The notes beneath the pieces were generated by a model, which saw nothing but the letters and a program-made list of their open reading frames with translations, did no database searches and had not been told where the DNA came from. From NCBI GenBank assembly GCA_946902875.1, contig OX336355.1:7647347-7711346 (forward strand): a stretch of DNA of 64,000 nucleotides, given 5' to 3'. How positions within the stretch are numbered: the stretch's first letter is position 1; every line of letters begins with the position of its first letter. Below are positions 8,866-62,439 of the stretch, piece after piece. Origin of the DNA: Nematopogon swammerdamellus (lineage: Eukaryota; Arthropoda; Insecta; Lepidoptera; Adelidae). Made by a program: the position numbers and the translations under genes.

Positions 8866-9457
8866 TGTAATAACCTCTACCCTATACCTATTGTTTTTCC
8901 TTAGATATTAAAGGCAGAATTATCAAAAATCAACTCTTTAGCTCTAGAACAACTAGAATATAAAGAATCGAAATATGGCCAGCGTATAACTTTCAAGTGA
9001 TCTCTAGGTTTGTCAGAAACAGTGTCGCTAATTCGTACACATAATTCCTGTAAAATGGACCCAATTATTACTTCCTTTTCAGGAAGCCGTTGTGTACCGT
9101 AATAACTCAGAGTACTAACTCTCATTTCCTAAATCTATTCTAGTAAATTCTAATATCAACATTAAAGCACTTACCAAACTAATTGCTCATTCATCTATAG
9201 TCATTTAAACCCTTCTGGTTTCCCTCTGTGTTCTATGTGCACGCTTCGACAGCGCGCTCACGTACCTCGCTTGCGAGCTTGTGAGACCCGCCAAAATTCA
9301 AAATGAAAGTGTTCTGATGTTTGTGTTTTTGTTATTATTAAATTATGATCAATGTATTACTTGATAGCTTAATTTTGTTGTGCTGTTCAATAGATGAAAT
9401 CTATTATTTTATATTTTCTTCTAAATTTTAGAACTTCAACAATACAAACTTTTATTG

Positions 9458-9589
9458 ACCCCTTTTGAAGGGGTTTGTGGAACTGGCCCCACTAAATTCG
9501 TATGGACCCTCGGTCCATACGATATTTATCCATCGCCAGTCCCCGTGACTCCCAACGCAGATAAATTTGTACTTAAGCTACAAATTTAT
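9458..9589. repeat. Three consecutive hairpins in the LTR
   Basis: CCCCTTTTGAAGGGG at about 9459; an 11-bp perfect stem TCGTATGGACC at 9498-9508 with 9512-9522 (3-base loop); an 11-bp perfect stem ATAAATTTGTA at 9561-9571 with 9579-9589. Also at +23,115 in the other LTR. Confidence 0.8.
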
Positions 9590-10325
9590 TATTTGTCCCT
9601 AGGAGTCCCCGTTTTCTGATCTGTACAAAATATACATCTTCAGACAGATTTACCAATTTAATCTCGTAGTGTTATGTTGGAGTTCAAAAGATATTCTTTT
9701 GTCCTCCCTAAAGGCATAAGTGTATGCTTTTAATTGTGAGTGTATAGTGTATATGTTATGGTTTATATTTCTGTGGCTATCTATTGATATACCTACAGAA
9801 ATTGTTTTATTCCAAATGATGCGGTCAGGGGTCCACCTTTCACCGAAATCAATTAGGAATATTTTCTTAAGGGTTTATTAAAATGGTGTGCTGGTCATAA
9901 TCTACATAACCTATACAAGTATATTTAAACCTGATTTACGCAATCTCCCTACGTCCTAAAACGTAACTAGCCAGTATGTTGCATATGCATATATATTACA
10001 AAATTTACCTTTGAATTCCACTATCCTAACCGGTCTGACACGATTCACTAAAATCACCTTAAATAAAACACCATTACAAATAGAATAGCGTAAAACAATA
10101 AATTCAAACGAAACCACAACACCCGCCACTGAATCTAATCGCGAAGTTAACACTTAATAAAAATATACTTTTATATCAAAATACGGTAAAACCACTGATT
10201 TTACATATTTAAATTCGACATATTTTTTAATAATTACGCGTGGTTCAAACACTCTTATATACGTATGATTTACGAATTTAAAGATCGGGTTTTGTTTCTT
10301 TTAATCTTCTCTATATTTTAAAATA

Positions 10326-11281
10326 CCTTCCCAATGTACTAGTCCTCATGGCAGGCCAGTTCGGACATAGTGTCATTGTAAAAGTTCTTTGGAAATCCTT
10401 CCATCACCAGTCAAGATTCCAGAATCCAGCTCAACCTTCATCCAGAACTCAAAAGGCTCAAAAAGAACATCCAAAATATAATTCGCAACCTAGTTGAAAA
10501 TTCCTATATCACCCCCAAAATTACAAAATCCAGCTCAACCTTCATTTGCAACTCCGAAAGCTTTACAGAAATTCCCACACTAAAATTCACGAATCAAACA
10601 AACTCTATTCACTGACTTCCTTTATGTACGTGAAATTTATGATCAGGTCACAGTCCATTATATTTTAATATAAAATAAAACCTTCCCAATGTACCTGTCC
10701 TCATGGTAGGCCAGTTCGGACATAGTGTCATTGTAAAAGTTCTTTGGAAGTCCTTCCATCACCAGTCAAGATTCCAGAATCCAGCTCGACCTTCATCCAG
10801 AACTCAAAAGGCTCAAAAAGAACATCCAAAATATTTTCCGTAAAACTAGTTGAAAACCCCTATATCACCCCCAAAATTACAAAATCCAGCTCAACCTTCA
10901 TTTGCAACTCCGAAAGCTTTACAGAAATTCCCACACTAAAATTTACGAAACAAACAAACTTTATTCACCGGTTTTTACAAAATCATTTATGAACTAAGAA
11001 AACCTTCCCAATGTACCAGTCCTCATGGTAGGCCAGTTCGGACATAGTGTCATTGTAAAAGTTCTTTGGAAGTCCTTCCATCACCAGTCAAGATTCCAGA
11101 ATCCAGCTCGACCTTCATCCAGAACTCAAAAGGCTCAAAAAGAACATCCAAAATATTTTCCGTAAAACTAGTTGAAAACCCCTATATCACCCCCAAAATT
11201 ACAAAATCCAGCTCAACCTTCATTTGCAACTCCGAAAGCTTTACAGAAATTCCCACACTAATATTCACGAAATTAAACTAA
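10326..11281 (+). repeat. Three tandem ~320-360 bp repeats in the LTR
   Basis: Units start at 10326, 10681 and 11003, each with CCTTCCCAATGTAC, CCAGTTCGGACATAGTG and CACCCCCAAAATTAC. Units 2 and 3 are nearly identical. The same array lies at 33441-34396. Confidence 0.85.
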
Positions 11282-11323
11282 TTTCAATCACCGGGGTTTT
11301 TTACCAAATTCATTTACTAAGAA

Positions 11324-11460
11324 AACCCAATCAAAAATACACGCGAGCGAAGCCGAGTGAAATTATTCACTAGGAAAACCCAATCGAAAATACACGCGAG
11401 CGAAGCCGAGCGATACTTCTTTCCCGAACTTATTCGAAAACTCACGCGAGCGAAGCCGTA
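11324..11460 (+). repeat. Short CACGCGAGCGAAGCCG repeats in the LTR
   Basis: Three copies of ACACGCGAGCGAAGCCGAG or a close variant. The array also lies at 34439-34575. Confidence 0.75.
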
Positions 11461-11569
11461 CTAACTTTCGTACCTGGGCTCTCGCTAAATACGCACGACC
11501 GTCTCCTTCGACTCCCAAAACAGACTGAACTCCCCACGCTCCCCTCCCTCTCCTTTTATAATCTTTCCT

Positions 11570-11835
11570 CGTGTCACAATCCTGACACGCAGGAACAAAT
11601 CGAACGGTGGCCTCCTAGTATGGCCATGACACGTTCGTGTCACGGAGCGCGATTTTGTATGGAGATTGAATTTCGATTTTTAGTATGGGCTGGACACGTT
11701 TGTGTCACGCAGGAACAAATCGATCGGCTGCCTCGTAGTATGGCCGTGTCACGTTTCTGTCCGGACTCGTAATTTTGTATGGAGGATAATTTTATGTTTT
11801 TAGTATGAACTGGACACGTTTGTGACACGATATAA
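11570..11835 (+). repeat. GTGTC/GACAC repeat array, block 1
   Basis: About 110-bp units with GACACGCAGGAACAAATCGA, AGTATGGCC, TGACACGTTCGTGTCA and TTTTAGTATGGGCTGGACACG. Short inverted CGTGTCA/TGACACG pairs repeat in each unit. Also at 34685-34950. Confidence 0.8.
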
Positions 11836-12699
11836 ATTCGATTTTGGAGGGAAAACAAACCCTCTTCGTACCTTCCACATGGTACCTAAAGCTGTTTCGC
11901 TCGTCAGCGATGCGATTTACCTCTACTTCGGGGGTTTTAACACCACTTCCCCGCACCCATTGTGCATCTCCGCATGCAGAGAACTGTTGCTTTTGTTATA
12001 TAAATTAATTGATGTTATTACATGTGCTCTATTAATAAATCGACTTTTAGCGCCATAACGGAGTGTTTTATTTATATATTTTTGTTTAATATCGTCTATA
12101 TTCTTCGAGTATTTTCATTTAAAATGCTAACGTTCCAAGTTGTTAGTTTTCTTATTGTCTATATATTAATTCCTGTACATGCGTGATACCATCTTCCGTG
12201 TTTGATAATACTTATTCATGTACGGAACCTGGACACGCAGAAACCAATCGAAATCTCCTTACCATCGTCGTGTTTTATTCATGTCAGGACACGAAACCAT
12301 TCCTTCATACTAACACCGCTTAACGAAAACCCCTCCCGCACCGCTTGACAAATTACCTCAGGTCGCTCCGCCTCGCCCCGCGGCCCACGCGCGCCCGCAG
12401 CTCGGTAATACCTCACCCCTTGTCTTGTTTACCTCATACCTCTCTCCGCCCCGCGCGCACGCTCCAACGGATATTTATTTGAATGTTGGCGTCATACTCA
12501 ATGAAACGTTGTTTTGTTTTATTTTATGTTTTTGTTTAATAACTGGTACTTTGTTTATATACTCTTCCCTTTATAAAATGTTTAGTGTATTAGTTTGAAT
12601 CATTAATAAATAATTATTAAAATAATTTTAGACCCTGTGCGATATCTTCACAGAGATCACGAAACTTCAAATTCCCATAAACTCCGTCATGTCCAGATT

Positions 12700-13300
12700 C
12701 CAGACACGCAGGAACAAATAGACCAGCGACCTCATAGTATGGCCGTGTCACATTCGTGTCCTGACACGAATTTAGTATGGAGATTAAATTGAATCATTAG
12801 TATGGACTCGACACGAATCGGACACGCAGGAACAAATCGAACGGCGCCCTCTTAGTATGGCCGTGACACGTTCTTGACACGCAGGAACAAAACGCTCGGT
12901 TGCCTCGTAGTATGGCCGTGACACGTTCGTGTCACAGAGCGAAATTTCGTATGGAGATAGAATTTAATTTTTAGTATGGGCTGGACACGGTTGTGACACG
13001 CTCGAACAAATCGAACGGTGGCCTCGTAGTATGGCCGTGTCACATTCGTGTCCTGATACTATTTTAGTATGGAGATAAAATTAGATTAATTAGTATGTGC
13101 TGGACACGGTTGTGTCATGCAAGAACAAATCGAACGGCGGCCTCGTAGTATGGCCGTGTCACATTCGTGTCCTGACACAAATTTAGTATGGAAATAAAAA
13201 TAAATTATTAGTATGAGCTTGTCACGTTTCTGACACATAGGAACAAAACGTACGGTGTCCCCGCAGTATGAGCGTGTCACGATCGTGTCTTGACAATAAT
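12700..13300 (+). repeat. GTGTC/GACAC repeat array, block 2
   Basis: Five to six diverged units of the block-1 motif (TAGTATGGCCGTGTCACATT, CGTGTCCTGACACGAATTTA). Also at 35815-36415. A GC-rich stretch with CGCGCCCGCAAGACGCGCG follows at 13370-13450. Confidence 0.8.
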
Positions 13301-14396
13301 TCATTCTTTCATACTAACAACTCGCAGCGAAATAATCACTACTCGCGCTCCTTGACTCGCTACCTCAAGCCGCGCTCAAACGGCGTGATGATACCGCGAT
13401 CTCTGACCCCGCGCCCGCAAGACGCGCGCCTTCTTACCTCACCTCTCCGCCGTTTCGTACGCGCCCATGTCTTGTTCCCCTCTCACCGCGTGTCAGGATT
13501 ACCTCATGCTACCTTCCCCGCCTCGGCGCTCTATAGTGTTTTATATGCGAACCAACTGATGTTATTATATTTCTTGTTTGTCTAATTGCGCGTCGTATTG
13601 TAATGGCCGTTCGCGCCATTTTATTTCTTAGTGGAGTGTGCAGTCACGATTGAATTTATTAGGTGATTAGTTAAATTGTAATATAAATTATTTTGTTAAT
13701 GAAACGTTTTAATGTTCTATAATTTAGCTTTGAATTACTATTGGCTATATATTTATCTTTTTTACCTTGTGTGATTCCATCACAGTCGCCCGCATAGAGG
13801 TTCGTAACGAAGCAAAGTCAACGGAACCTCATTCCGTGACGCTTGATCTCGTTAAGAAGCTATATACATTATGATCTTGAAAATTACTTCTTCTTTGTTA
13901 GGGTTTTATTGTTCCCTTCCAAGAAGTTTGTATATATAATTATTTATCACTGTTAGGGTTCAAGTTCCCTTCCAGAGACCCCCTTCTTCTATAATTTTTA
14001 ATTTGTGTGTTTTTTTTTTTTTTTTCCAACACCATCTGTCCACGTGCTTTAGGAAGTTCTTACCCTCCAGCTTAGGATTTATCTCCCTTAGCTTAAAGAG
14101 AAAAGATTTTTAGAATGCATACCACAACCTTACCACCTCCGGCTTAGACCATGTTTGCACTCTTTCCCTTATCTTCCATTTGCAGCTCGTGCCAATACTA
14201 CATTAAACAAATATTTTAGTGTAATTGATTTAGTTTATTATTAATAAATCTAGGAATTTAGGCAAAAGTTATCACCTCAAAGCCTTAGATCCCTATATTC
14301 TGCCTCTAACAGATTTCCCAACAGTGCAGGAACCTCTAGTCTCATCCTTTACCGTATGGGCCGAAACAGAACATCACCGCTTACAGTGCAATACAC

Positions 14397-15510
14397 ACCT
14401 TACCACCTCCGGCTTAGGCTATGCAAGCAGTTCGGCAGGACAGAACTGGTCCGTGAAGAACACATAACACACCTTACCACCTCCGGCTTAGGCTATGCAT
14501 GTATCCTAGCACAACAAGCTTCCATTAAAGGCAGAGTAGTCGGGATACATATTTTCAAAAGACTTCGAAATCGACTCATGCATCATTTTGGATCCTAACT
14601 CACCTATTGACGAATAGACGGACTCGGTATGCTTGTAAACGATTCTACTTTAACTCCTCCAACATTTCTCCGGTTAATGATTTCAAACCAAATACTACAC
14701 TCATTCACTGTAAATAGACCAGAAAATGTCATCCTGAACTTCCAACGCTCCATTTTTTTGTGTTCGGAACGCCTTTAGTAGACGATGTCATAATCCCTCC
14801 CCAGCGTGAGTCAGACTCAGTAAAATGTAAAGTTCTGCACTTAAGGCATTTTCACCTCACCTTTTCTAAGTCCCAAATTGTGTGTTCTTCACACTGAATT
14901 TAATTTAACATTATTTTCGAAGCAATGTATGGGAAAACCAAACGAAGCCAAAGTATCCTGATTCCTTGTAAAGGTCCCTTCAGGTTAGAGCGCTGCTCTC
15001 ATTAGAAGGAAATTTCACTACAGAGTACAGACACTACAATACCCGCAGGTTTACTCGCGTATTTTACACAAACATCCAAAACCATCCACTCAAGTCAACA
15101 AGTCTATTTTAAATTTTTGTTACTTCTTATTTAGAAGTAATTTAGTCTAACTCTCCTCACTGTACAGCATTTTATTTATTTATTTTGTCATATTTGTTTC
15201 CCGTTTTTTTTTTTTTTTTTTTTTTTTTATTTATATTAATTTTATATATTTATAAAATAAATTACCTATATAAAATTTATACAAACAGACATAAACAAAA
15301 GACGGTATTCTCGCCGGCGACGGGAGACGAGAATTATTATTATTATTATTATTTATCGTAAGGACCGATACAGTACATCACTGTTTACAATGCAATACAC
15401 GCCTTACCACTCCTGGCTTAGGCTATGTAAGCAGTTCGGCAGGACAGAACTGGTCCGTGAAGAACACATAACACACCTTACCATCACCGGCTTAGGCTAT
15501 GCAAGTAGTT
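14397..15510 (+). repeat. Dispersed ~79-bp repeats in the element's 3' region
   Basis: CCTTACCACCTCCGGCTTAG followed by GCAGTTCGGCAGGACAGAAC and a GAAGAACACATAACACACC end. Copies at 14397-14530 and 15396-15510; shorter copies near 14050 and 14130. Confidence 0.7.
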
Positions 15511-16179
15511 CATTATTTTTTTTTTCTTTTTATTTTAGAATTAATTAATATATTTATTTATTATTTTTTTTTTTCTTCGCCCGCATGACTTTACTTACTC
15601 TGTGAAATTTAATTTTAATTTTCTAACCCGTATGAATCTATTTATTTTAACAATAATTTAATGAGCACTACTCTAGTGGTTTATTTACAGTATTTATGAG
15701 AATGTAACCCACAACTACGTCTATCAACAATTCAATACGCTCGCTACCGACAAAGTATCCTTAACATGATAAAAGTCACCGATAGATAACGTGATAATAG
15801 AAATTGAAGAAGGTTTTGTATAGTGTAACGATTATGCGTAACAGTAGGTTGTTTCACATAATCAATTTTGACAAGGCGCTTAATAAAATTACATTTTTTT
15901 TTTTTTTTTTTTTAATTTTACTTTATTTTACAAAGTTATTCCATTAGATAAATTTTCTCTGGTTCCTATTTTATCACAATCCTTTTCCTTTGTAGGTTTT
16001 CTTGTAACCTGTAAAATAACACAAAATGTCAATATTTTATATATTTTACAAAAAATTTTTTTTTTTTTTTTTTATAAATATTTACTAACCTGTTTGTAAA
16101 TGCTTAGAAGGATTGTTTTCTTTTTTTTTTTTTTTAAAGAAAAAAAAAATTTTTTTTTTTTTATTATTAAATCATTTTA

Positions 16180-16470
16180 TTAGTCTTCTTCTATAAAATT
16201 AAACATGTTTACATACTGTTAAATTACATAAAATGTATCAAAATCATATTTTCAATCTTCTTAAATAAAATTAAACCTGTTACAACCTGTTGAATTACAT
16301 GAAATGCAACAAAAATCGTTTTATTAACTTTCTTCTATAAAATTAAACCTGTTTACAACCTGTTAAATTACATAAAATGCAACAAAATTTATTTTATTAA
16401 TCTTCTTCTATGAAATTAAACCTGTTTACAAACTGTTAAATTACATAAAATACAACAAAAATCAATCTCC
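16180..16470 (+). repeat. Tandem repeat of ~62-75 bp, four units
   Basis: Each unit has TTCTTCTATAAAATTAAACC, TGTTTACAACCTGTTAAATT and ACATAAAATGCAACAAAA with small changes. Confidence 0.75.
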
Positions 16471-16606
16471 TTAAAATTAAACTTATATTAACAATGTGTA
16501 CTTGTGTTCTTTATTGTAATTTTTATCACAGATGCATCACGCCAGAACTAGCGAGATTTAATTTTAAACCCTATCGAACATGTTAATGTCCTCATATTAT
16601 AATAAA

Positions 16607-16945
16607 GGAATTCTAGCTGGGACGCACAAGAATTAATCTAAAACCCTAACAGAGAATGTTAAGTGACCCCCCTTTTTATAAGGAATTCACGCTGGGACGC
16701 ACGTGAATTAACCTAAAACCCTAACAGAGAACGTTAAGTGACCCCCCTTTTTTATAAGGAATTCACGCTGGGACGCACGTGAATTAACCTAAAACCCTAA
16801 CAGAGAACGTTAAGTGACCCCCCTTTTTTATAAGGAATTCACGCTGGGACGCTCGTGAATTAACCTAAAACCCTAACAGAGAATGTTAAGTGACCCCCCT
16901 TTTTATAAGGAATTCACGCTGGGACGCACGTGAATTAACCCAAAA
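16607..16945 (+). repeat. 75-76 bp tandem repeat, five units
   Basis: Units start GGAATTCACGCTGGGACGCA at about 16607, 16682, 16758, 16834 and 16909, each with AACCCTAACAGAGAACGTTA and a GACCCCCC-T run. GAATTCACG and CGTGAATT inside the unit are inverted. Confidence 0.88.
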
Positions 16946-16946
16946 C

Positions 16947-17140
16947 CTGTATGAAAGGTAAACACCCTGTATGAATGGATGACACCCAGTATGAACGGAA
17001 AACACCCTGTATGTATGGAAAACATCCTGTATGAATAGAAAACACCCTGTATGCATAGAAAACCCCCTGTATGAATGGACACCAGTATGAACGGAAAACA
17101 CCCTGTATGAATAGAAAACCCCCTGTATGAATGGAAAACA
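16947..17140 (+). repeat. ~21-bp minisatellite, about nine units
   Basis: CCCTGTATGAATGGAAAACA and variants repeated head to tail, ending 51 bp before the stop of the last accessory ORF. Confidence 0.85.
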
Positions 17141-17190
17141 AAATAAAATCTTTACTAATGAAATCTGTTTAGATTTAGTTTTTTTTTCTT

Positions 17191-17697
17191 TTAAAACTCC
17201 AATGTGTTAATTATATGGTTAAAATTCTGGTCTATGTAGTCTTCTATAACCGGAATCAAATCTGACTGTGGATTGATGAGGGATCCTTCTCTCTCAGGCC
17301 CGTCTGATTCTTGTTTCTTGCTCTTCTGTTTGGACAACCAATTCATTTCCGTCGTCACAAACTGTGTGATTTGTTGAAGTTGTCCTTCATATTCTGATAT
17401 TAGTTTCTCTCTCCTGACTTTCCTGATATTTGATTTTTTTTTGTGAAGCGTTATGTCTTTCTCCAACCGTTTCTGTCTTCTGTGTAAATCATGTTGAAGT
17501 CTGCTCCCTACTTTTGGCTCCTGTTCCTCCGCTGTTCCTATTGTTTCTTGGTGTTCTTCTTCCATTATTGTTAACATTCTTTTTGTTATGTCCAGTCTGT
17601 AGACTTTTGTTTTTAGTAATTGTTCCTCTTTCTCTTCTTCTTCTTGGAACTGCATTAATTCTTTCCTTTTTGACTCTATTTCCTTCTGATTCATCAT
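17191..17697 (-). CDS. Accessory coiled-coil ORF 2 of the giant element
   Basis: 168 residues with an ATG at 17697 and a second at 17694. Highly charged: Glu-rich start (QFQEEEEKEEQLL), basic helix (RRQKRLEKDITLHKKK), then LISEYEGQLQQITQFV; coiled coil predicted over most of residues 4-125. The acidic C terminus ends NHIINTLEF. No membrane segment, signal peptide or enzyme motif, so it is not an envelope although it sits where env usually lies. A splice-acceptor-like TTTTTGACAG lies 25 nt before the ATG, so a spliced subgenomic RNA is plausible. Function unknown; a particle-assembly or Gag-binding role would only be a guess. Confidence 0.65.
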   Translation of the reverse strand: MMNQKEIESKRKELMQFQEEEEKEEQLLKTKVYRLDITKRMLTIMEEEHQETIGTAEEQEPKVGSRLQHDLHRRQKRLEKDITLHKKKSNIRKVRREKLISEYEGQLQQITQFVTTEMNWLSKQKSKKQESDGPEREGSLINPQSDLIPVIEDYIDQNFNHIINTLEF

Positions 17698-17722
17698 GTC
17701 TCTTTTCTGATCTTCTCAAAAC

Positions 17723-17733
17723 CTGTCAAAAAT
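17723..17733 (-). promoter_or_regulatory. Candidate splice acceptor for accessory ORF 2
   Basis: Minus-strand TTTTTGACAG|GTTTTG, 25 nt upstream of the ATG at 17697. Confidence 0.45.
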
Positions 17734-17900
17734 GTATTTTCATCAAAACTTTTCTTTTCTCTGAAAATAGGTGGTCATAAAATATTTTGTTGCGGGGTTT
17801 TTTTTTTTTTTTTTTTTTTTTTGAAATCCTAATTTTGTATCTATTTATTTTTTTATTTATTTGTTTTGTTTTAAGTGTTATGTAGTTCATTTATGTTTTC

Positions 17901-18290
17901 TTATTTTCCACAATTCTCTTTCCAGGCCAGTCTTAAATTTTGTAATTCTTTATGTATCTTCGCCTTCTCTACCCTGTTATTTTGTTCCAAAAGGATCATT
18001 CTATTTTTTATTTTCCCTAATCTTCTGTAAATGCTCATGCATTTTCTTAACTTATTTTGTTTTTCAAGATGAAATTTTCTTTCTAATTTCATTTCCTTTT
18101 CCAATTGGTCCAACTTTGCTGTGTTTTCCAAAATTTCCTTATAGATGTTGTTGCTAATTTCCTGTTTATTACAAAGGACTTCTTTCCTTATTGTTTTTAT
18201 ATTTATTTCAATGTTGAGTTGTAGTAATTTATATCTTTGTGTTATCATTTCTTCAGTTAGTTGTATTATTACTGATTTTATTTGTTCCAT
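17901..18290 (-). CDS. Accessory coiled-coil ORF 1 of the giant element
   Basis: 129 residues from a true ATG at 18290, starting 47 nt after the pol stop. Lys/Glu/Leu-rich heptads run almost throughout (QLNIEINIKTIRKEV, ILENTAKLDQLEKEMKLERK, RVEKAKIHKELQNL). No transmembrane segment, zinc knuckle or enzyme motif. A splice acceptor (CTGAAAATTTTCAG) lies 20 nt upstream, the same spacing plan as for the next ORF. I do not recognise a family. The two accessory ORFs resemble each other only in composition, so common origin is unproven. Confidence 0.65.
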   Translation of the reverse strand: MEQIKSVIIQLTEEMITQRYKLLQLNIEINIKTIRKEVLCNKQEISNNIYKEILENTAKLDQLEKEMKLERKFHLEKQNKLRKCMSIYRRLGKIKNRMILLEQNNRVEKAKIHKELQNLRLAWKENCGK

Positions 18291-18309
18291 CCGTAGTTTT
18301 GTTTGAACC

Positions 18310-18323
18310 CTGAAAATTTTCAG
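18310..18323 (-). promoter_or_regulatory. Candidate splice acceptor for accessory ORF 1
   Basis: Minus-strand CTGAAAATTTTCAG|GGTTC, 20 nt before the ATG at 18290. Confidence 0.45.
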
Positions 18324-18337
18324 TTTTATTTAAATTT

Positions 18338-21300
18338 TCAACAACAATTTTCCTTAATTTTCTTGTCTTTATAATATTTTTCTAAGTGTATGGTATTAAA
18401 GTTTCCTCTAATTTTACCGGTGTCTGGGTGTACTAGTGTGTAATTATTTTTATAAGGTGTCGCCGCTATGGTATATGGTCCTTCGTAAATTAGTGAGAAT
18501 TTTTTCGTGACTTTCTGCTCTGCTGATGATTTAGGTATTGTTTTTAATTTTACTAATTGTCCTATTTCAAATACCACATTTTGATACTTTTTGTTATACC
18601 TTTTAATTCTTGCTATTGCGTTTAATCGAATATTTTCTGCAGCACGAATTCTATCTTCGGTTAATTTATCTTTGTTAATTTTTATAATATTTGGTAAGAA
18701 TTTCTCTATTGGTGAATGATATGTTTTCCCTGTTAGTAAGTATGTTGGTGCAAAACCTGTACTACAGTGTGTTATTTCATTGTAACAGTCTTCTACTTCC
18801 TTCATTATAAAACCCCATTTAGTATGTCTATCACAACAATATGTTCTAAACAGTCTTCCTAATTCTTTGCATACTCGTTCTACACAATTAGGTCTTGGAT
18901 TGTAAACAGAAGTGTATGTTAATTTAATTCCTAATTCATTTATCAATCTTTTCCATACTATTGATTTGAATTGTGTACCTTGGTCTGTCATAATGATTTC
19001 AGGGAAGATAACTTTCACAAAGTTTTTCAAACATTTCGAAAGAGCCGTGGCGTTAGCTTTCTTTAAAGGATAAATTCTTATAAATTTTGAAAATCCATCC
19101 TGAATGATGAATATGTATTGTATTCCCCCTCTGGATCGTGGTAGTGGTCCATATATGTCAGCCAGTACTATTTCTCCTATGTGATTTGTGATTACTGGGC
19201 TCAATTTTCCCATAGTTCGTACATTATTAACTTTTGCTAATTGGCAGATATGGCAAGTTTTTAGTACTTCCCTAATTCTTTTTGCCATATTTAGCCAATA
19301 ATACTTCTTGCTGAGTACTCCTTTAATTTTTAGAGTGCCGAAATGTCCTAGTTCCTCATGATATCTCCAAATGATGTTATCTATTTCCCCCTCGGGTATT
19401 GCTATTTTTGGTATATTGTCTGCAGTGCGAAAGTGTAATATATTGTTTATCATTTCGTATGTTTTGCTTTTAGGTTTTGAGGGTTTTATTTGGTTTTTTA
19501 TGGTATCGGCGATTTTCTTCATAGCGAAGTCCGTCTGTTGTAGTTCTTTTAAATCCTTTAGTTTATTCTTCAATTCGTTAACTCCTTTTACTCGAAACGC
19601 TGCTAACTCTGGGCATATTTCCTTTAATTCTTGTATTTTCTCTGCTTTATTGGTGTATCTCGATAATACATCTGCGCAAATATTTTCAGTACCTTTTACA
19701 TATTCTACAATGAAGTTAAATTGGTTTAAATACAATAACCATCTGGTTATTCTACTGTTGTGTAATTTCCAAGTTCTTAGGAAAGTTAGGGATTGATGAT
19801 CCGTTCTTATGATGATTGATACTCCCCTTAGATATGTTTCATATTTTCGTAAACAATATATTACTGCCCAGAGTTCTCTTTCGCTCACTGTCCATTTCCT
19901 TTCGGCTGCTGATAATCCTTTGCTGCAAAACCCTACTACTAAGTGATCTCCTTCATCGTTAATTTGATAAAGACATCCGCCAAGAGCATATGCAGAACAA
20001 TCCGTTTGTAAGTAGAATTGCTTTGTTAAATCAGGATGTGTTAGCATAACAGATTTTAAAAATAAACTTTTTACTGTTTCAAATTGAGTTTGTCTGTCGT
20101 TTGTCCAATCCCATTTAGTTCCCTTTTTTAGTAATTCACATAATGGTTGTATTGACGTTCCGTAGTCTTTTATAAATTTCCGATAATAATTACATAAACC
20201 GAGGAACCCTCTGAGGTGTCTTACTTTCTTTGGAACTGGGAAATCATTTATAGCTTCCACTTTCTCGGGATCCATTTCTATGCCCTTTTGTGAAACTATA
20301 TGTCCTAATATTTTGATTTCTTGCTTTAGGAATTGACACTTTTTTAAACGACACGTTAATCCGCCTTCTTCTAATTTATCCAGCACTATGTCTATGTGGT
20401 GAATATGTTCTTCCACGGTGCTTTTTGTAAAAATTATTATGTCGTCCAAATAATTTACACAGAAATCTGTTACGTCTTCTCCTAATATTAAGTACATTGC
20501 ACGGGAAAAAGCTGAAACTGAAGTTTTTAATCCTTGTGGTAAGCGCAGATATACATATGATCTATTCAAGAATGTAAATCCTGTATATTTCACACTGTCA
20601 GGGTGTAACGGGATCTGAAAGTAAGCATTGCTTAAATCTATTGTACTTAGGTACTTTACCCCATGAAATTTTTGCAATATTTCAGATATCAATGGTGGTT
20701 TTTCTATCTCTCCTTCCAATTTGGTGTTTAGAGTTCTTGCATCTAATAATATCCTTACACTTTGATCTTTTTTTATAGTATAAGTTAACGGACTGGAATA
20801 AGGAGTAGCGGCTTTCATTAATATACCTTGGTTCACCATTTCAACCAATTTTTCCGCTACTTTTCCTCTATAAGCATGTGGTACAGGGTATGCATATTTC
20901 ACAAAAGGTATTTCGTCTATTAATTTTAATTTATGTACATATTTTTGCGTACAGCCTGGAATCTCTGAGAATTGTTTTTCATGTTTTATAAGCACATTCT
21001 TAAAATTTTGTTTATCTCGTGTGCTAATAATTTTTATGTTTTCTAAACATTCAAAAATTTCTTGTCTTGTAGTATCCTTTTCTTTAATTGTCATGTTGTT
21101 ATTTAAATATTCTTCCTTCTTATTTACTTTGGACTCATGTAATGGCACTCTTAAATTTACGGTTCCTTTTAACTCTAATGCTGTTGGTGTCTTGCATATT
21201 ATCGTTGCATTATTTTCTTCCAAGAAGTTGTATCCGAGTATGATGGGTCTCACCAATTTCTCTACTATCAAACATGGTACGTTTATTATTATCCCCATTA

Positions 21301-25395: not shown

Positions 25396-28300
25396 CATTC
25401 CGACCATCAACCCGACAACCGGGGCAAGCAGAGCAACCGGTGCCGCGCCACACACACCCAACCACTTCAAGCAGCAAGCAAGCACGAAGACCCACCCCTC
25501 CGCACGACTCGGCGGAAGGACCACGACAATGCGACAGGGGCCAGCCCGCCGCCCCTCAGCACGGCATCATGTTCCCCGCACCCCAGCCGCCTCCTCCTCT
25601 ACACGCACGGGGAGAAACGCAGCGGGGCCACTATCATTAATACCGACCGGCTCACATGCACGGTACCGTTGTTAATGCTAAATAAAGTCTTGTGTTCTAA
25701 GTACACGACTCATATCAATTTGACAGTGCCTATCTAAGTATGTACCTACCTATGTAACTAAATTATAGGTGACCGGTAGTGGAGCTATAGTGTATAACCA
25801 AGTATGATAATAATAGATAGGTACATACAGGAGTTATTTATTTTTAGATAGTTAGGTATCTACAGCTATGTATTACCCGTCGGAATTTCTATATAGGCAT
25901 TATAGGCTAGGCACCTCCTCTCCTCGAATAAATGCGCTTTCCTCCGCACTTCACCGCGGTCTCACCTCGTTAGTACCGTTATCGGGGTATTTTTGTGGCT
26001 AGGTAATATGGCTGGAGGAAAGGCGGAGGGTTGAGGGGAAGAGATTCAAAATGATTGTCATCATCACTCACACAACTGGCTGACCGACCGACAACCAACA
26101 TCACGTGTGTTACCACGATGTAATTTTTACCAATACTAAATAGCTACTCTTAAATATCGAGGTGTTCAATTTATACGCGTTTTCAATTTAGTCAATACTC
26201 TTTTTCCTCTTTTAATTAACATAAAGATTCTGACAAATAGTATACATACTATATTGACCGTTTGATACCTGACAAAATGAGCGCTTTGCATTCTAGGTAG
26301 CATAATACATTTAGTAAAATTTAATAGTGGCAAGATTGGTGGATCGACACTCGCTCGATAATTTCGTCACCTGTACAACATTCGCATGCGCACTCACCCG
26401 TACGCCGGTACCAAAATAATTTGCTTCGTGCGATCGATCGAGTCGAACGCAACCCGAACTCGTCGTGCGAGCGAAACCAGCACGGCAGGGGCCCTGATGT
26501 TTACTTTTGTAAAAGGGAGGAAAAGTTTAATTTGAATTTTAAATATAATTATTTTGTTCCAGCGACACCTATCTCACTATGTATAACAATGCCCAACAAA
26601 ATTTTCTACGTTGTAATGTCAAAACTTCACTAATACACCAATAGATGGCAAGTAAATAGAATACTCCATGTTTCGCAAAACTCACTTCCAAACATAATAC
26701 TAGTATTGTATAAGTATAATTTGCTTCTGCAAAATCATTAAGCATTTTTCATAACCCCTCACTCCCTCCCTGCCTCTTAACCACTTCCTTTCAGATGTCA
26801 CTATGATGTGAACATTGTGAACTGTGGGTATGTTTATTTCCTAATTTTAAATTTTTTTCCTTTTTCCTTCTTTTTCCCATTTTCCCGGGTTCTTGAGTAT
26901 TTGAGTACCCTACCAAATCTTTCTCCATTCGACTTATTTTCTTTCCCCTTTTTTTTCTCCTTTTCGGATTTACTCCGAAATTCACTCCGTAAGGTTGGTA
27001 CTTATTTGTTTTAGTACGCAAGTCTGGTCCCCTTACGCTGTGAAAGCAAAACAAACACTAGCAATGGTTCTTATTGTTCGCGATAAGATCCATATTCCTT
27101 CAAATATTTTTGAACCGGGCGCCCTGAGTCAGTTAATACACAACCACAGCAACGTTACCATTTATATGGAATTATCCATTTTTAAATGATTTTCAAGATA
27201 AAATGTGGAATTAAATATCCGGGCATTTCATACTAGTTTTATCATTTTACAGATTTCCACATAAGAAGATCAGTTTGGAATATGGATTTTCTATAAAGCT
27301 TTTCTATAACATCCACATTTAAATGATTATCCAAACGCATATTGATTCTCAGAAAGCCTAGAACTGAAATGCCGCCACGGTTTTGCATCTTGTGTGAATA
27401 TAATGAATGACCGGCCAATATACGACCTCACTTCTTTCTTTTCAAAATCTAAATCGTATTTAAATTAAATTAATAATCTACTTATAATATCTAAGCTATC
27501 TGCTCTAATAATTTGGCGGAACAGGTTTCACACGAATGCCTACCTACCCCGTTAATGCTGGCCACACTGAACTGAACCAAACTCGAATCAACCATACAGC
27601 CGCATCAATCCTCTATTCAAAATGGTGGCACCAATGTATTATTTCCGGCAACTCTTAGACCCACCCCTTCATTCACGTAATTTTCACAAGCAAACAGCTC
27701 ACATACAACCGACCCATAAAACAGGCAACATCTACTGTCCACCTCCAGTGGCAATGGGCTGAGTACGTCAGGCAAAAAATTTTTTCTGGACAACAGTGTC
27801 TTGCTCCGACATCCGCAGACAGGATACTTAATATAGGAAAACCTCCACTTCCAGTCAATACGTTGACATAAGATAATTAATGGAATCCAATAATACACAT
27901 CTTCAGAATTGAATTTCTACATAGAAAAGTTAATGCATACGTTTTCTATTAGACCGTCATCACATCCATTCAATTTCCCCAACAATGTTAGTGAGACAAG
28001 ATACGACTATCTTATCTTCTAACTCCCAATCACGTTGTAAGAATACATAAATACTAATATATCCATGTACTCGCTTTTATAAAATGAACAAACTCATACA
28101 ACTAGACAAATATTTATGCTTCGTTCCCATACACAAAATATATGACTTCAGTTAACACGGAATCCATATACCTACATTAGCTCAAACATACTTCCTCAAA
28201 TACATACCATCCAACATTTCCAATTCATAACTAAGTTGATAAAATGGATCTACACTGTTTGATAGTGAAATACGCCTTCGACAACACACCGCAACAAACC

Positions 28301-28795
28301 ATCAACTAGTAATTCTATTGCGTGTCGCCTCGGACTAGGCGCTTAATAGCCTTCTTGCTTGATTTTCAACAAACACTTTTAACTTCATCTTTCTGAATCG
28401 TTGTAAAACTGTAGTCCCTTCCATTATCTATATTAATTGGCACAATTATAATGTTCTAATTAGCTGAAACGTTACATCTAATATCAAACTTCTGCTCTAC
28501 AGCCAATTATATACATTACTGCTTGACAAATACATACAATCACAAACTGATATATATATTTTATTCCAACCCACATCTCAAGCAGTGAAATAAACAGCGT
28601 TATACTGCTGACCACACTAACGTATATTCAATTCCACAGATAACCAACACTCCGACATGGCATCCATAAAACCTATCTCCCACACATACCAACATGCTGC
28701 ATCCAGGCAAGTCAACCTTCACATTGCAACAAGATACAGGGTCCTTTTCCCGCACTACCTAACAGTATAACCGTGCCAAGGTGAGAAGTGGCCAG

Positions 28796-29142
28796 TCCGT
28801 CACTCGCCATCCGCAGAGTTTCGCCTCACGCACAGTCACCCCTTTCTACTAGCATAAAACTACTCTCTCTTCACAACATATTACTTGATAAAATTTTAAT
28901 TCTTCAGTAAAAAAATCTCCCGATGCGCCCCAACAAATTCGCAAGAAGCAAAACATCGCAAGTTCGTTTTTTTTTTTTTTTCTTTCCCTACAAAGCGCGA
29001 TTCGTCATCCGCAAAGTTCCGCCTCACTCACAATCACTCCTATATATTATCGTAAAACTATACTCTCTTCTTAACATATTACTTGATAAAAGTTTTTTAA
29101 TTCATCAGTAAAAAAATCTCCCGATGCGCCCCAACAAATTCG
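28796..29142 (+). repeat. ~195-bp direct duplication in the leader
   Basis: CCGCAGAGTTTCGCCTCACG at ~28810 recurs as CCGCAAAGTTCCGCCTCACT at ~29005. Both copies end AAATCTCCCGATGCGCCCCA. Confidence 0.8.
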
Positions 29143-29781
29143 CCTCGCCTGGCGACAATTCCAAATTGTAACCGTCCGGCCTCTCATTTGTTCTTATGAA
29201 ACTGCAAGTTTCTGACGCTGTAGCCGGCATGTTCATATTATTAATGTTTAAGTGGCACTATAGAACCGGACGTAAAACGAACTCATAGCATCCCAATGCT
29301 TTACAATGACACAGCACAACAATAAAACCCTCAATTGCACTCCAGGAGTACTGACAGAAACAAAATCTACATACGCTTATTACAGAACTCCTCATTCCTT
29401 CCGAATTAACTGTCAATTCTAGTAGAACGGACAGACACAACCATTCTACAGAACTCTACATTTACCCTGAAACAAATTTCAACTTTAGTAGAACAGGCAG
29501 ACATACAAGCAGACAGCGTAGGCTCCGCAAAACGATTTCCTCATTCGCTTTTTGTGCACCAACCTGCATCCTACAACTTGTAATATTCTATGCTATGCCG
29601 CTTAATACTATATTAACCGAGGCACAACGCCGATCACTCAACCCATACACATCTCAAGACTTAGTGCATGACAAAATAAATTGTATTTTCTGCGCATTGT
29701 TTTCCCGACGAGATACTTGACACAACAGAAGAACCGTACTACTGTTAACATCGCTAATGGCCTTCCCATTCCTCAATTACT

Positions 29782-29890
29782 TCGCCAACCACGCCGCACC
29801 TCCAACGGCGTGATGGTGTTGCGAACTCTGTCTCCGCGCCCGCAGGACGCGCGCGCGAGCTACGCCCTGCTCGGTCATCAACTCAACAGA
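29782..29890 (+). repeat. LTR-related GC-rich fragment inside the leader
   Basis: AACGGCGTGATGGTGTTGCG with CCGCGCCCGCAGGACGCGCG resembles AACGGCGTGATGATACCGCG and CCGCGCCCGCAAGACGCGCG at 13379-13430 in the LTR. Confidence 0.6.
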
Positions 29891-31980
29891 GTCTCCGCTT
29901 AGTATACTTGAATCATGTTAAAATAGCAACAATCCGTCCAATGAGCGTATGTCCCTGCGTCACAAAAATGATCAAAACGGTCTAGTCAACGTGCGTTGAC
30001 AATCCATCCAGTCAAACCGTACACAAACATTCATACTGGATAAACATGTAATCTTTATCTTCAACAAAACGAAAGACACGTTGTCACAGCTACTCACCCC
30101 TGAGGTGTAGCACGTCGCAAGTACAGTTGCGACACTTTTTCCAGTAACTACGCGCGACGGTACAAAACGCATCCGTCTGTACAACATTCGAGTAAGTCAT
30201 GACAAAACGAGAGGTGGCTAGTCCGTCGTCTTATAGCACAGCAACACATAAAGTCACGAAGTAATAAATCAATATGTATTGATTTATTCTCAATCAAATA
30301 AAACCATTTCATATACAAACATCCACTGTGGTATGATACTCGCACAGTTTATTATGCACACATTTAAAAATACACAAATTACCCAAAAAATTAACAGTAA
30401 AATCTAACATGCATTTACCTACTCATCATTCACTATTCATTTCGTTTACCTAAACATGAAAAAAAAATTTTTTTCTTTCTCGGCACTGCTATTTCATTGC
30501 CTCTGACAATTATATATATACCAATATTCATTCACTCTTTTACCAAAATACACAAACCAGACAAACATCTTTGTATTAGCAATCTGAGCTAAACCACGCG
30601 CTTCTCCATTTTTTTTTTTTGTCTAAATTGAACACCTGCATCGCCACGTGGTTGAATTCTTCAACTTTTGTTAGTCTCGTATATCAATTGTATCTCTCTC
30701 TCTCTCATTCACACCCCACTAGAAGAGCAAGTCTAAAATAGCGCTCTAGTCTACTGTCTCGTTCTAACTCTTACTTGCATTGCATACACTTTATACTAGT
30801 GGGAAAGAGATAAGAATCATTCGTACACTTATGCCAAACGAAACTAATGATCAAACACAAACAGTACAACACGTGCACCCATAAATCAATCTTTCTTGAC
30901 CATGGTTCTCTCCTCATGGGCCTAATCAACACGAAATTTACAAACTTGTGTAGGGTTGCCAAAAATATTCCACCTTCTCACTTCAAATTTCGTGATTGCA
31001 ATTTCCACATAATAACAAAGTAATAGAAATCATACATACATACACACAACACACGCTTCCCCCTCCGACAAACCAGGCAAATAGAGCAACCGGCGCTGCT
31101 CTACAGGGACTTTGGTATCTGTTTGTTTTATTCCAAAACAATTCAATGCATAATGTGACACATACATAAACAACATCTGTATAATACGACTCCGTGCACC
31201 ACATATTATTATTATTTCCTATTTCCCCTTTTTTTTTTTTTTTGAACAATATAATTAAATAAGTCAGATTAAACTTCCCAAACCCTTTAGCACGAATTTC
31301 TCTAAACACACAATGCACCCAAACATGCTTCATCCTTAAAACCAGTCCACACTAGTCTTTCAAAAATTTGGTAGCCCTGCGCCCGCAAGTATTCTGTGGC
31401 CTTGGCCAAGCGCTCATCAATCAATAATTCTCCAGTTCCACTTTTCCATAGAACAAATAATCATTATGCAAGTGACATTAAAATTTCTTTTTATAATAAA
31501 TGGCTAATAACATACTTATGACGATGTAATTGCGTAGGTCATGTAATTCATTTCACAATTACGTACAACATTTTCCCTCTGAAAAGAAACACTTATTTTG
31601 TATCTCGCCGGATAATGGAATAACTCACATTGTTGCTATGGACCAAACCATAGTTAGATGTCATCTGCTGGAAACTGCTCCGATGTTTACTGGCAGTAGA
31701 CTGGGCACGCCTAGACTTACATTACGAATCGTAACCATACAATTCGCTCGCAAATTACGTTTTGGCACAAAATAATAAGATTTCTCGTGTCAGACCATTA
31801 CAAAACGTTTATATATATATATCTACACATTTTAAACTTTCCTAAACCATGGTCACGGGCACACCCGCGATAACTTTCGTACCTGGACCTTAGAATTCCA
31901 TGGATTTATGATAACACTACTATAACTAAAAAAGAACTTATTTTTACATAATTTTTTTATATGCTGGTCACGCGCACTAC

Positions 31981-34900
31981 TGTAATAACCTCTACCCTAT
32001 ACCTATTGTTTTTCCTTAGATATTAAAGGCAGAATTATCAAAAATCAACTCTTTAGCTCTAGAACAACTAGAATATAAAGAATCGAAATATGGCCAGCGT
32101 ATAACTTTCAAGTGATCTCTAGGTTTGTCAGAAACAGTGTCGCTAATTCGTACACATAATTCCTGTAAAATGGACCCAATTATTACTTCCTTTTCAGGAA
32201 GCCGTTGTGTACCGTAATAACTCAGAGTACTAACTCTCATTTCCTAAATCTATTCTAGTAAATTCTAATATCAACATTAAAGCACTTACCAAACTAATTG
32301 CTCATTCATCTATAGTCATTTAAACCCTTCTGGTTTCCCTCTGTGTTCTATGTGCACGCTTCGACAGCGCGCTCACGTACCTCGCTTGCGAGCTTGTGAG
32401 ACCCGCCAAAATTCAAAATGAAAGTGTTCTGATGTTTGTGTTTTTGTTATTATTAAATTATGATCAATGTATTACTTGATAGCTTAATTTTGTTGTGCTG
32501 TTCAATAGATGAAATCTATTATTTTATATTTTCTTCTAAATTTTAGAACTTCAACAATACAAACTTTTATTGACCCCTTTTGAAGGGGTTTGTGGAACTG
32601 GCCCCACTAAATTCGTATGGACCCTCGGTCCATACGATATTTATCCATCGCCAGTCCCCGTGACTCCCAACGCAGATAAATTTGTACTTAAGCTACAAAT
32701 TTATTATTTGTCCCTAGGAGTCCCCGTTTTCTGATCTGTACAAAATATACATCTTCAGACAGATTTACCAATTTAATCTCGTAGTGTTATGTTGGAGTTC
32801 AAAAGATATTCTTTTGTCCTCCCTAAAGGCATAAGTGTATGCTTTTAATTGTGAGTGTATAGTGTATATGTTATGGTTTATATTTCTGTGGCTATCTATT
32901 GATATACCTACAGAAATTGTTTTATTCCAAATGATGCGGTCAGGGGTCCACCTTTCACCGAAATCAATTAGGAATATTTTCTTAAGGGTTTATTAAAATG
33001 GTGTGCTGGTCATAATCTACATAACCTATACAAGTATATTTAAACCTGATTTACGCAATCTCCCTACGTCCTAAAACGTAACTAGCCAGTATGTTGCATA
33101 TGCATATATATTACAAAATTTACCTTTGAATTCCACTATCCTAACCGGTCTGACACGATTCACTAAAATCACCTTAAATAAAACACCATTACAAATAGAA
33201 TAGCGTAAAACAATAAATTCAAACGAAACCACAACACCCGCCACTGAATCTAATCGCGAAGTTAACACTTAATAAAAATATACTTTTATATCAAAATACG
33301 GTAAAACCACTGATTTTACATATTTAAATTCGACATATTTTTTAATAATTACGCGTGGTTCAAACACTCTTATATACGTATGATTTACGAATTTAAAGAT
33401 CGGGTTTTGTTTCTTTTAATCTTCTCTATATTTTAAAATACCTTCCCAATGTACTAGTCCTCATGGCAGGCCAGTTCGGACATAGTGTCATTGTAAAAGT
33501 TCTTTGGAAATCCTTCCATCACCAGTCAAGATTCCAGAATCCAGCTCAACCTTCATCCAGAACTCAAAAGGCTCAAAAAGAACATCCAAAATATAATTCG
33601 CAACCTAGTTGAAAATTCCTATATCACCCCCAAAATTACAAAATCCAGCTCAACCTTCATTTGCAACTCCGAAAGCTTTACAGAAATTCCCACACTAAAA
33701 TTCACGAATCAAACAAACTCTATTCACTGACTTCCTTTATGTACGTGAAATTTATGATCAGGTCACAGTCCATTATATTTTAATATAAAATAAAACCTTC
33801 CCAATGTACCTGTCCTCATGGTAGGCCAGTTCGGACATAGTGTCATTGTAAAAGTTCTTTGGAAGTCCTTCCATCACCAGTCAAGATTCCAGAATCCAGC
33901 TCGACCTTCATCCAGAACTCAAAAGGCTCAAAAAGAACATCCAAAATATTTTCCGTAAAACTAGTTGAAAACCCCTATATCACCCCCAAAATTACAAAAT
34001 CCAGCTCAACCTTCATTTGCAACTCCGAAAGCTTTACAGAAATTCCCACACTAAAATTTACGAAACAAACAAACTTTATTCACCGGTTTTTACAAAATCA
34101 TTTATGAACTAAGAAAACCTTCCCAATGTACCAGTCCTCATGGTAGGCCAGTTCGGACATAGTGTCATTGTAAAAGTTCTTTGGAAGTCCTTCCATCACC
34201 AGTCAAGATTCCAGAATCCAGCTCGACCTTCATCCAGAACTCAAAAGGCTCAAAAAGAACATCCAAAATATTTTCCGTAAAACTAGTTGAAAACCCCTAT
34301 ATCACCCCCAAAATTACAAAATCCAGCTCAACCTTCATTTGCAACTCCGAAAGCTTTACAGAAATTCCCACACTAATATTCACGAAATTAAACTAATTTC
34401 AATCACCGGGGTTTTTTACCAAATTCATTTACTAAGAAAACCCAATCAAAAATACACGCGAGCGAAGCCGAGTGAAATTATTCACTAGGAAAACCCAATC
34501 GAAAATACACGCGAGCGAAGCCGAGCGATACTTCTTTCCCGAACTTATTCGAAAACTCACGCGAGCGAAGCCGTACTAACTTTCGTACCTGGGCTCTCGC
34601 TAAATACGCACGACCGTCTCCTTCGACTCCCAAAACAGACTGAACTCCCCACGCTCCCCTCCCTCTCCTTTTATAATCTTTCCTCGTGTCACAATCCTGA
34701 CACGCAGGAACAAATCGAACGGTGGCCTCCTAGTATGGCCATGACACGTTCGTGTCACGGAGCGCGATTTTGTATGGAGATTGAATTTCGATTTTTAGTA
34801 TGGGCTGGACACGTTTGTGTCACGCAGGAACAAATCGATCGGCTGCCTCGTAGTATGGCCGTGTCACGTTTCTGTCCGGACTCGTAATTTTGTATGGAGG

Positions 34901-36899
34901 ATAATTTTATGTTTTTAGTATGAACTGGACACGTTTGTGACACGATATAAATTCGATTTTGGAGGGAAAACAAACCCTCTTCGTACCTTCCACATGGTAC
35001 CTAAAGCTGTTTCGCTCGTCAGCGATGCGATTTACCTCTACTTCGGGGGTTTTAACACCACTTCCCCGCACCCATTGTGCATCTCCGCATGCAGAGAACT
35101 GTTGCTTTTGTTATATAAATTAATTGATGTTATTACATGTGCTCTATTAATAAATCGACTTTTAGCGCCATAACGGAGTGTTTTATTTATATATTTTTGT
35201 TTAATATCGTCTATATTCTTCGAGTATTTTCATTTAAAATGCTAACGTTCCAAGTTGTTAGTTTTCTTATTGTCTATATATTAATTCCTGTACATGCGTG
35301 ATACCATCTTCCGTGTTTGATAATACTTATTCATGTACGGAACCTGGACACGCAGAAACCAATCGAAATCTCCTTACCATCGTCGTGTTTTATTCATGTC
35401 AGGACACGAAACCATTCCTTCATACTAACACCGCTTAACGAAAACCCCTCCCGCACCGCTTGACAAATTACCTCAGGTCGCTCCGCCTCGCCCCGCGGCC
35501 CACGCGCGCCCGCAGCTCGGTAATACCTCACCCCTTGTCTTGTTTACCTCATACCTCTCTCCGCCCCGCGCGCACGCTCCAACGGATATTTATTTGAATG
35601 TTGGCGTCATACTCAATGAAACGTTGTTTTGTTTTATTTTATGTTTTTGTTTAATAACTGGTACTTTGTTTATATACTCTTCCCTTTATAAAATGTTTAG
35701 TGTATTAGTTTGAATCATTAATAAATAATTATTAAAATAATTTTAGACCCTGTGCGATATCTTCACAGAGATCACGAAACTTCAAATTCCCATAAACTCC
35801 GTCATGTCCAGATTCCAGACACGCAGGAACAAATAGACCAGCGACCTCATAGTATGGCCGTGTCACATTCGTGTCCTGACACGAATTTAGTATGGAGATT
35901 AAATTGAATCATTAGTATGGACTCGACACGAATCGGACACGCAGGAACAAATCGAACGGCGCCCTCTTAGTATGGCCGTGACACGTTCTTGACACGCAGG
36001 AACAAAACGCTCGGTTGCCTCGTAGTATGGCCGTGACACGTTCGTGTCACAGAGCGAAATTTCGTATGGAGATAGAATTTAATTTTTAGTATGGGCTGGA
36101 CACGGTTGTGACACGCTCGAACAAATCGAACGGTGGCCTCGTAGTATGGCCGTGTCACATTCGTGTCCTGATACTATTTTAGTATGGAGATAAAATTAGA
36201 TTAATTAGTATGTGCTGGACACGGTTGTGTCATGCAAGAACAAATCGAACGGCGGCCTCGTAGTATGGCCGTGTCACATTCGTGTCCTGACACAAATTTA
36301 GTATGGAAATAAAAATAAATTATTAGTATGAGCTTGTCACGTTTCTGACACATAGGAACAAAACGTACGGTGTCCCCGCAGTATGAGCGTGTCACGATCG
36401 TGTCTTGACAATAATTCATTCTTTCATACTAACAACTCGCAGCGAAATAATCACTACTCGCGCTCCTTGACTCGCTACCTCAAGCCGCGCTCAAACGGCG
36501 TGATGATACCGCGATCTCTGACCCCGCGCCCGCAAGACGCGCGCCTTCTTACCTCACCTCTCCGCCGTTTCGTACGCGCCCATGTCTTGTTCCCCTCTCA
36601 CCGCGTGTCAGGATTACCTCATGCTACCTTCCCCGCCTCGGCGCTCTATAGTGTTTTATATGCGAACCAACTGATGTTATTATATTTCTTGTTTGTCTAA
36701 TTGCGCGTCGTATTGTAATGGCCGTTCGCGCCATTTTATTTCTTAGTGGAGTGTGCAGTCACGATTGAATTTATTAGGTGATTAGTTAAATTGTAATATA
36801 AATTATTTTGTTAATGAAACGTTTTAATGTTCTATAATTTAGCTTTGAATTACTATTGGCTATATATTTATCTTTTTTACCTTGTGTGATTCCATCACA
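31981..36899 (-). repeat. 5' LTR (element orientation), 4,919 bp
   Basis: Co-linear copy of 8866-13784 at offset 23,115 with no indel; same TG...CA ends. The element promoter should lie here, but its transcription start cannot be placed by eye. Confidence 0.88.
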
Positions 36900-62433: not shown

Positions 62434-62439
62434 AAGAAA

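Follow-up and report, generated by a model that had tools for sequence, protein, structure and literature searches.

Among long terminal repeat (LTR) retrotransposons, giant elements have been described from plants (Ogre) and planarians (Burro). According to the excerpted account in PMC6431247, Ogre has LTRs of 1.9–6.5 kb, a total length of 16–25 kb, an interior of 11–13 kb and one or two extra frames, and Burro is a gypsy-like element of more than 30 kb with a polyprotein of about 4,900–5,100 aa, host-like domains and env homology. LARD-type derivatives, in the same excerpts, are bounded by LTRs, lack gag-pol and are moved in trans (PMC6431247). No giant LTR element of insects was found among the matches listed from open-licence literature other than preprints. 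The window analysed here is a 64,000-nt stretch of the genome of the lepidopteran Nematopogon swammerdamellus (contig OX336355.1, C24:7647347-7711346 in the host assembly as searched), in which positions 8866–36899 (28,034 bp, minus strand) form a Ty3/gypsy-type LTR retrotransposon. With a probability of about 0.92, this element represents a giant family that was active very recently, and probably still is, and whose copies without gag-pol are mobilised in trans.

The element shares giant size and long LTRs with Ogre as excerpted, but its host is lepidopteran rather than a plant, its interior between the LTRs measures 18.2 kb, and where Ogre has an extra frame no frame of at least 150 aa was present upstream of gag as far as the 5′ LTR (the longest ATG frame there has 116 aa). 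Like Burro it is a gypsy-like giant in an animal host; Burro as excerpted has a giant polyprotein, whereas gag here has 317 aa, pol has 1193 aa and the bulk is non-coding. In contrast to the excerpted description of LARD-type derivatives, the short copies reported below arose recently, by internal deletion of an autonomous giant that shares their genome. The result is an insect giant LTR element of 28 kb with a gag-pol of normal size, many near-identical copies and open frames.

Two co-linear 4,919-bp direct repeats, TG...CA ends, a GACG duplication and a single gag-pol were all present, as an earlier note on this DNA had claimed, with its coordinates exact to the base. The two repeats show 0 mismatches. 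The window LTR has plus-strand ends TGTAAT...ATCACA (longer form TGTAATAACCTC and GATTCCATCACA). Because gag and pol are both encoded on the minus strand, the 5′ LTR is the one on the right.

8862–8865, no strand: left copy of the target-site duplication GACG, directly outside the LTR
8866–13784, minus strand: 3′ LTR, 4,919 bp, containing tandem repeats of 53-, 119/120- and 174-bp units
22849–31980, minus strand: 5′ leader, non-coding, 9.1 kb; the deletions of short copies do not reach about 24.67–31.98 kb
31981–36899, minus strand: 5′ LTR, 4,919 bp, same sequence as the 3′ LTR
36900–36903, no strand: right copy of the target-site duplication GACG, directly outside the LTR

Gag-pol spans 4,511 bp, or 16 % of the element, leaving 84 % non-coding. 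The sense strand has an excess of G throughout the element (LTRs +0.18, leader +0.25, gag-pol +0.10, 3′ region +0.18) but not in five flanking stretches (−0.04 to +0.03), which indicates that the interval is one unit. Features of Ty3/gypsy (Metaviridae) were found in the TG..CA LTRs, in a target duplication within the 4–6 bp range and in the pol order of protease, reverse transcriptase (RT), RNase H and integrase. Rfam gave 0 matches at the gathering threshold. The opposite orientation was rejected: the inner edges (30 bases, other strand) hold neither TGG nor a purine tract, and the relative orientation of LTR and pol was constant in seven of seven other long copies sampled.

Termini, duplications, open frames, copy number, LTR identity and deletion classes were observed directly in the host assembly (699 Mb, 39 contigs). 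The LTR-end pattern (28 bases, at most 2 mismatches) occurred at 271 places and its reversed control at 0. A search with the first 1,001 bases of the LTR gave 567 first-look candidates, of which the best 40 were scored, all with 100 % identity. Copies with these LTRs are spread over many contigs, in agreement with the earlier proposal of a giant, mainly non-coding family. From 38 fetched LTR stretches, which make up 18 pairs plus two singles, perfect 4-bp target duplications, which the earlier note had expected at other copies, were recovered in 17 of the 17 pairs with both ends readable and were of 15 different kinds; in pair 9 the LTR extends past the fetched stretch and the duplication is unreadable. 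Since the 17 pairs have duplications of their own and the reversed control gave 0 against 271, chance is excluded.

LTRs differ by 0–2 bases within all 18 pairs. No mismatch was seen in 11 pairs (one with a 1-base gap) and seven pairs differ by 1–2 bases, amounting to 10 mismatches over about 88 kb, with pair 9 compared over its first 4,919 bases only. The lepidopteran mutation rate is about 2.9e-9 per site per generation, and with this rate the divergence of these copies, which are those most similar to the window, corresponds to the order of 20,000 generations. Pol was open over 1193 aa with 99–100 % identity in 39 of 39 scored copies, which were the top-scoring among 2,680 first-look candidates of every kind. 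A 1.2-kb piece of pol, open and 99.75–100 % identical, was present inside seven of seven long pairs sampled besides the window, so the same pol recurs between these LTRs, a link established for a sample of the pol copies. Among 100 listed LTR ends, 12 lacked a listed partner inside 30 kb. Solo LTRs seem to be infrequent, which is an impression and not a count; the junction patterns hold less of the LTR and so also catch more diverged copies. In one copy (C2:13864495; L049 and L015/L016) both LTRs carry about 500 bp extra and are identical over the 4,919 bases compared, and the presence of the addition in both indicates that a longer LTR has itself been propagated.

The coding region and its surroundings comprise the following features.

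21895–22848, minus strand: gag frame, 317 aa stop to stop
21898–21904, minus strand: GGGAAAC heptamer, directly 5′ of the gag stop
21864–21889, minus strand: hairpin starting 8 nt past the heptamer, with a 9-bp outer stem
18338–21919, minus strand: pol frame, 1193 aa stop to stop
17191–17715, minus strand: open frame downstream of pol, 174 aa stop to stop, charged and coiled-coil-like by eye

The pol frame contains a G-patch, a retroviral protease, RT, RNase H, a zinc-binding H2C2 domain, an integrase core and a weak SH3-like end. The protease DTG, RT YLDD and integrase D, D and E residues were recognised by eye. Gag gave a weak match to Retrotrans_gag (16 bits, under the curated cutoff), and no CCHC knuckle was seen in it. 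Its 3′ end reads GTG GGA AAC TGA and the pol frame is −1 across GGGAAAC, which is probably the −1 frameshift site from gag into pol. The hairpin beyond the heptamer had a stability z of −4.37, with none of 200 shuffles equally stable. Betaretroviruses likewise have a G-patch in the pro-pol region, where it is C-terminal to the protease in the excerpted account (PMC1224870), while that of the window element is N-terminal to the protease. No insect Ty3/gypsy element described with a G-patch was present among the literature matches listed.

Pair lengths, taken from the first 100 listed LTR ends, yielded 44 same-strand pairs with spacings of 22.9–24.2 kb (14 pairs), 17.9–19.1 kb (seven), 15.1–16.7 kb (22) and 9.6 kb (one); 14 of the 44 match the window element in length and 30 are shorter. 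Two short copies were read through. The C7 copy lacks window positions 17725–22791, and the C4 copy lacks about 16134–24043 plus about 64 bases near 31.85 kb; the remainder is 97.6–99.7 % identical in both, with the primer-binding end of the C4 copy at 91 % over 127 bases. Nine further short copies were read over 2.6–3.1 kb. A junction removing gag-pol was seen in nine of these 11 copies (C7, C4 and seven of the nine), while in pairs 9 and 10 the stretch ends before the junction and loss of gag-pol is deduced from spacing. Breakpoints mostly differ between copies, pairs 3 and 18 being alike and pair 16 near C4. In the nine copies with the junction read, the deletions stop short of the leader past 24.67 kb (about 7.3 kb) and of the 3′ region as far as about 15.87 kb. 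Several gag-pol-less derivatives, whose origins are probably independent, have spread. The short copies have kept their LTRs and lost their coding sequence, as in LARDs; they inserted recently and may have been mobilised in trans. About 715 bp without a window match stand at the gag-pol deletion in pairs 3 and 18 (L043 and L051), which lie on different contigs and have like breakpoints.

We infer a cycle in which the 28-kb autonomous form would be transcribed from its right-hand LTR and would give Gag, plus Gag-Pol through −1 frameshifting. Reverse transcription would be primed by tRNA-His, and the element's own integrase would insert it with 4-bp target duplications. Gag-Pol would also mobilise the internally deleted copies without gag-pol, of about 20–22 kb and 23–24 kb.

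The two putative priming positions lie at the inner edges of the LTRs.

31961–31980, minus strand: primer-binding site (PBS), form A (sense GTAGTGCGCGTGACCAGCAT), an altered tRNA-His site, adjoining the 5′ LTR
13785–13799, minus strand: plus-strand primer position upstream of the 3′ LTR (sense CTCTATGCGGGCGAC), G-rich

Three PBS forms were distinguished in 19 copies (18 pairs and the window): A (GTAGTGCGCGTGACCAGCAT) in 14, B (GTGCTGCGCGTGACCAGCAT) in four and C (GTGGTGCCGTGACCAGGAT) in one, pair 7. Past one spacer base, form C is perfectly complementary to the 3′-terminal 18 nt of host tRNA-His, CCA included. This tRNA-His end is present at ten host places, with tRNA-His called by ARAGORN in three of the four fetched; an A-like tRNA end after the same T-loop sequence was not matched in the host by a pattern able to detect one. 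Forms A and B differ from tRNA-His by one mismatch near the primer end, an extra G and one further change. The junction of the altered PBS with the LTR was found at 141 places (at most 2 mismatches, so covering A and B), and a canonical-type junction at 27 places, eight of them exact and some near open pol copies. The family therefore includes a PBS matching a host tRNA, that of the window copy being altered, and the primer is probably tRNA-His. Form C is probably the old form, because canonical-type junctions occur at 27 places and some lie near open pol; the idea that it is a one-off copy-back from the tRNA is weakened by the same 27 junctions. Self-priming of the Tf1 type was rejected, as the LTR has no complement of at least 11 bases to the post-LTR sequence and only one 8-mer.

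Form B was seen in short copies only (4/4: L003, L016, L025, L036; against L012). At C6:7520664-7520683 (L061) a tRNA-His 3′ arm with encoded CCA occurs in which ARAGORN finds no tRNA gene, and which is perhaps the primer site of another retroelement. At the 3′ LTR junction, 60 nt are identical in 19 of 19 other readable copies (17 pairs and two singles). The polypurine-tract position reads GCGGGCGAC, which is not all purine and is kept in the 19 readable copies as well as in the sister family described below.

Relatives of pol numbered 237 proteins at E ≤0.001 (7,988 candidates scored), and the best 120 of these are described here. The first 57 are 40–53 % identical to the window pol, with Heliothis, Helicoverpa, Parnassius and Plutella among them; beyond these, identity is 37 % or less, one Parnassius fragment excepted. 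In a tree of 54 rows, all picked from the search hits and built by a quick method with no bootstrap, a core of 34 rows including the window pol was separated from the rest by a branch with 100 % SH-aLRT support. The 33 lepidopteran Ty3/gypsy-type pols of this core, Heliothis, Helicoverpa and Plutella being among those named, have the same domain order, many starting with a G-patch, and are mostly about 1130–1220 aa long with 40–53 % identity to the window pol; they were compared by protein alone, the contigs of the unnamed ones being mostly 3–12 kb. No relatives of the element were found in viral and prokaryote contigs.

When a Plutella pol was used as query, 41 of 41 scored places were open, frames of 1188 and 1200 aa included. 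The C30 copy, with the 1200-aa pol, is a 19.6-kb element with 2,559-bp direct repeats of 100 % identity. Its repeat includes AC ahead of the TG end, and the four bases outside TG..CA are AAAC and AAAT, an imperfect duplication. The PBS side of this sister family starts G-TGGTGCC, and its 3′ junction (CTCTAGGCGGGCGAC followed by TGTGATG) matches that of the window (CTCTATGCGGGCGAC followed by TGTGATG). Sister and window pol are 74 % identical (843/1,146 aa) and 68.9 % in DNA, with 31.6 % identity at 275 fourfold sites, which are thus saturated. The LTRs of the two families share 158 bp at 73 % only. Two further features were noted in the 3′ region.

14595–15112, minus strand: conserved non-coding block, aligned with its sister-family counterpart at 79 % identity across 509 bases
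14393–15511, minus strand: repeated-motif region, sense CCTAAGCCGGAGGTGGTAAGGTGTG or close, with copies near 14393–14433, 14467–14499, 15397–15437 and 15471–15511

The block has stops in all three sense frames in both families. Its 79 % identity despite saturated fourfold sites indicates either a constrained RNA element or later exchange. The simplest reading points to a non-coding RNA element under purifying selection, and later exchange between the families could also have produced the block. In a two-sequence fold, seven of 130 pairs were changed on both sides, which is too few for a claim of structure.

That some of the non-coding sequence has a cis function, in RNA packaging, export or dimerisation, is judged to have slightly better than even odds, because about 7.3 kb of leader escape the deletions and the 3′ block is kept beyond synonymous saturation. 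Somewhat short of even odds is given to an inert bulk, consisting of tandem repeats and captured filler in a master copy, with the leader kept in derivatives through recency. The copies are young (0–2 LTR differences), leaving little time for loss of unneeded sequence, the LTR contains tandem arrays, and the leaders of the two families lack BLAST similarity upstream of gag beyond 24-base matches. However, inertness fits poorly with deletions of varied breakpoints that spare the inner leader and the 3′ block in nine read copies, and with a 3′ block that is 79 % identical across families whose fourfold sites are saturated. A bolder form of the cis reading seems unlikely, namely that the element is mainly a functional non-coding RNA genome, with leader and 3′ block needed in cis and the altered tRNA-His site un-rewritten by the primer. 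If true, the need in cis would keep the autonomous element at giant size together with the parasites that lack gag-pol, and priming on an altered, un-rewritten site would contrast with the textbook cycle. Reverse transcription should rewrite the primer site from the tRNA primer. The natural deletion mutants make the purpose of the huge non-coding regions testable and map what may need retention in cis; the block shared by two families is a first candidate signal, and the altered yet propagated primer site a second testable oddity.

A nested composite, in which an ordinary gag-pol element sits inside a large non-coding LTR element, is very improbable. It would accommodate a gag-pol of just 16 % of the length and the existence of gag-pol-less copies, but short, different LTRs around gag-pol within the interval, which the earlier note had named as a threat to its own proposal, were looked for and rejected: self-comparison of the interior (22 matches) gave no inner direct-repeat pair around gag-pol. 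Moreover, the strand skew is uniform, the derivative junctions vary and also remove flanking element sequence, which is expected of deletions but not of an empty site, and the sister family has an equal layout with almost unrelated LTRs. Equally improbable is an endogenous, errantivirus-like retrovirus with an env gene, which the Ty3/gypsy-type pol and the additional 174-aa frame downstream of it might suggest. The sense-strand frames of the 3′ region are of 174 aa and 129 aa only, and no env-sized frame was found from pol to the 3′ LTR, although a spliced or very diverged env may exist. The 174-aa frame, also present in the C7 copy without gag-pol, had no homologue among 111 candidates and no Pfam match, and an env gene was rejected. 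That the direct repeat is an assembly artefact, as 100 % identity along 4.9 kb might hint, can be dismissed almost entirely, given 17 of 17 other pairs with the same ends and perfect 4-bp duplications of 15 kinds, and LTRs that differ by 1–2 bases, and hence were assembled separately, in seven of 18 pairs.

Several observations weigh against a giant family that is recently active and mobilises its short copies. LTR and pol copies were sampled by best score (40 of 567 candidates and 39 of 2,680), which biases youth and intactness upward. TGG is absent from the first 80 nt of the window PBS, the commonest forms (A plus B, together 18 of the 19 copies read) have mismatches to tRNA-His and an extra base that are unexplained, as the primer should rewrite the site, and no classical purine tract precedes the 3′ LTR. 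At the frameshift site, the wider 171-nt fold had a z of 0.32, no better than shuffles, and did not pick out the 21864–21889 hairpin. Between families, the leaders upstream of gag have no similarity by BLAST beyond the 24-base matches, and the conserved block is known from two sequences and could be explained by later exchange.

Outside the element, the window contains one host-like gene and several repeats.

39244–40875, minus strand: sstn (stepping stone) homologue, 543-aa open frame

The sstn homologue is 39–49 % identical to named moth and butterfly relatives, mostly over most of its length, and is roughly equidistant from many moth and butterfly families; named relatives from other insects match mainly over 8–24 % of the length. 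This identifies the host as lepidopteran, perhaps of an early-branching lineage. Two tandem arrays, each overlapping a long open frame, lie at 49626–50273 (18-bp unit, about 31 copies) and 52600–53466 (125-bp unit, about seven copies). A dispersed repeat of 200–240 bp, a SINE-like length, occurs with 79–98 % identity at 2783–3000, 48935–49175, 50956–51163, 53871–54108, 57984–58218 and 62221–62440; none of the 70 best self-comparison rows placed it in the giant element. Open frames with Baculo_FP_2nd and RNase H domains at 94–1056 and 41174–42037, both on the minus strand, are probably LINE remnants.

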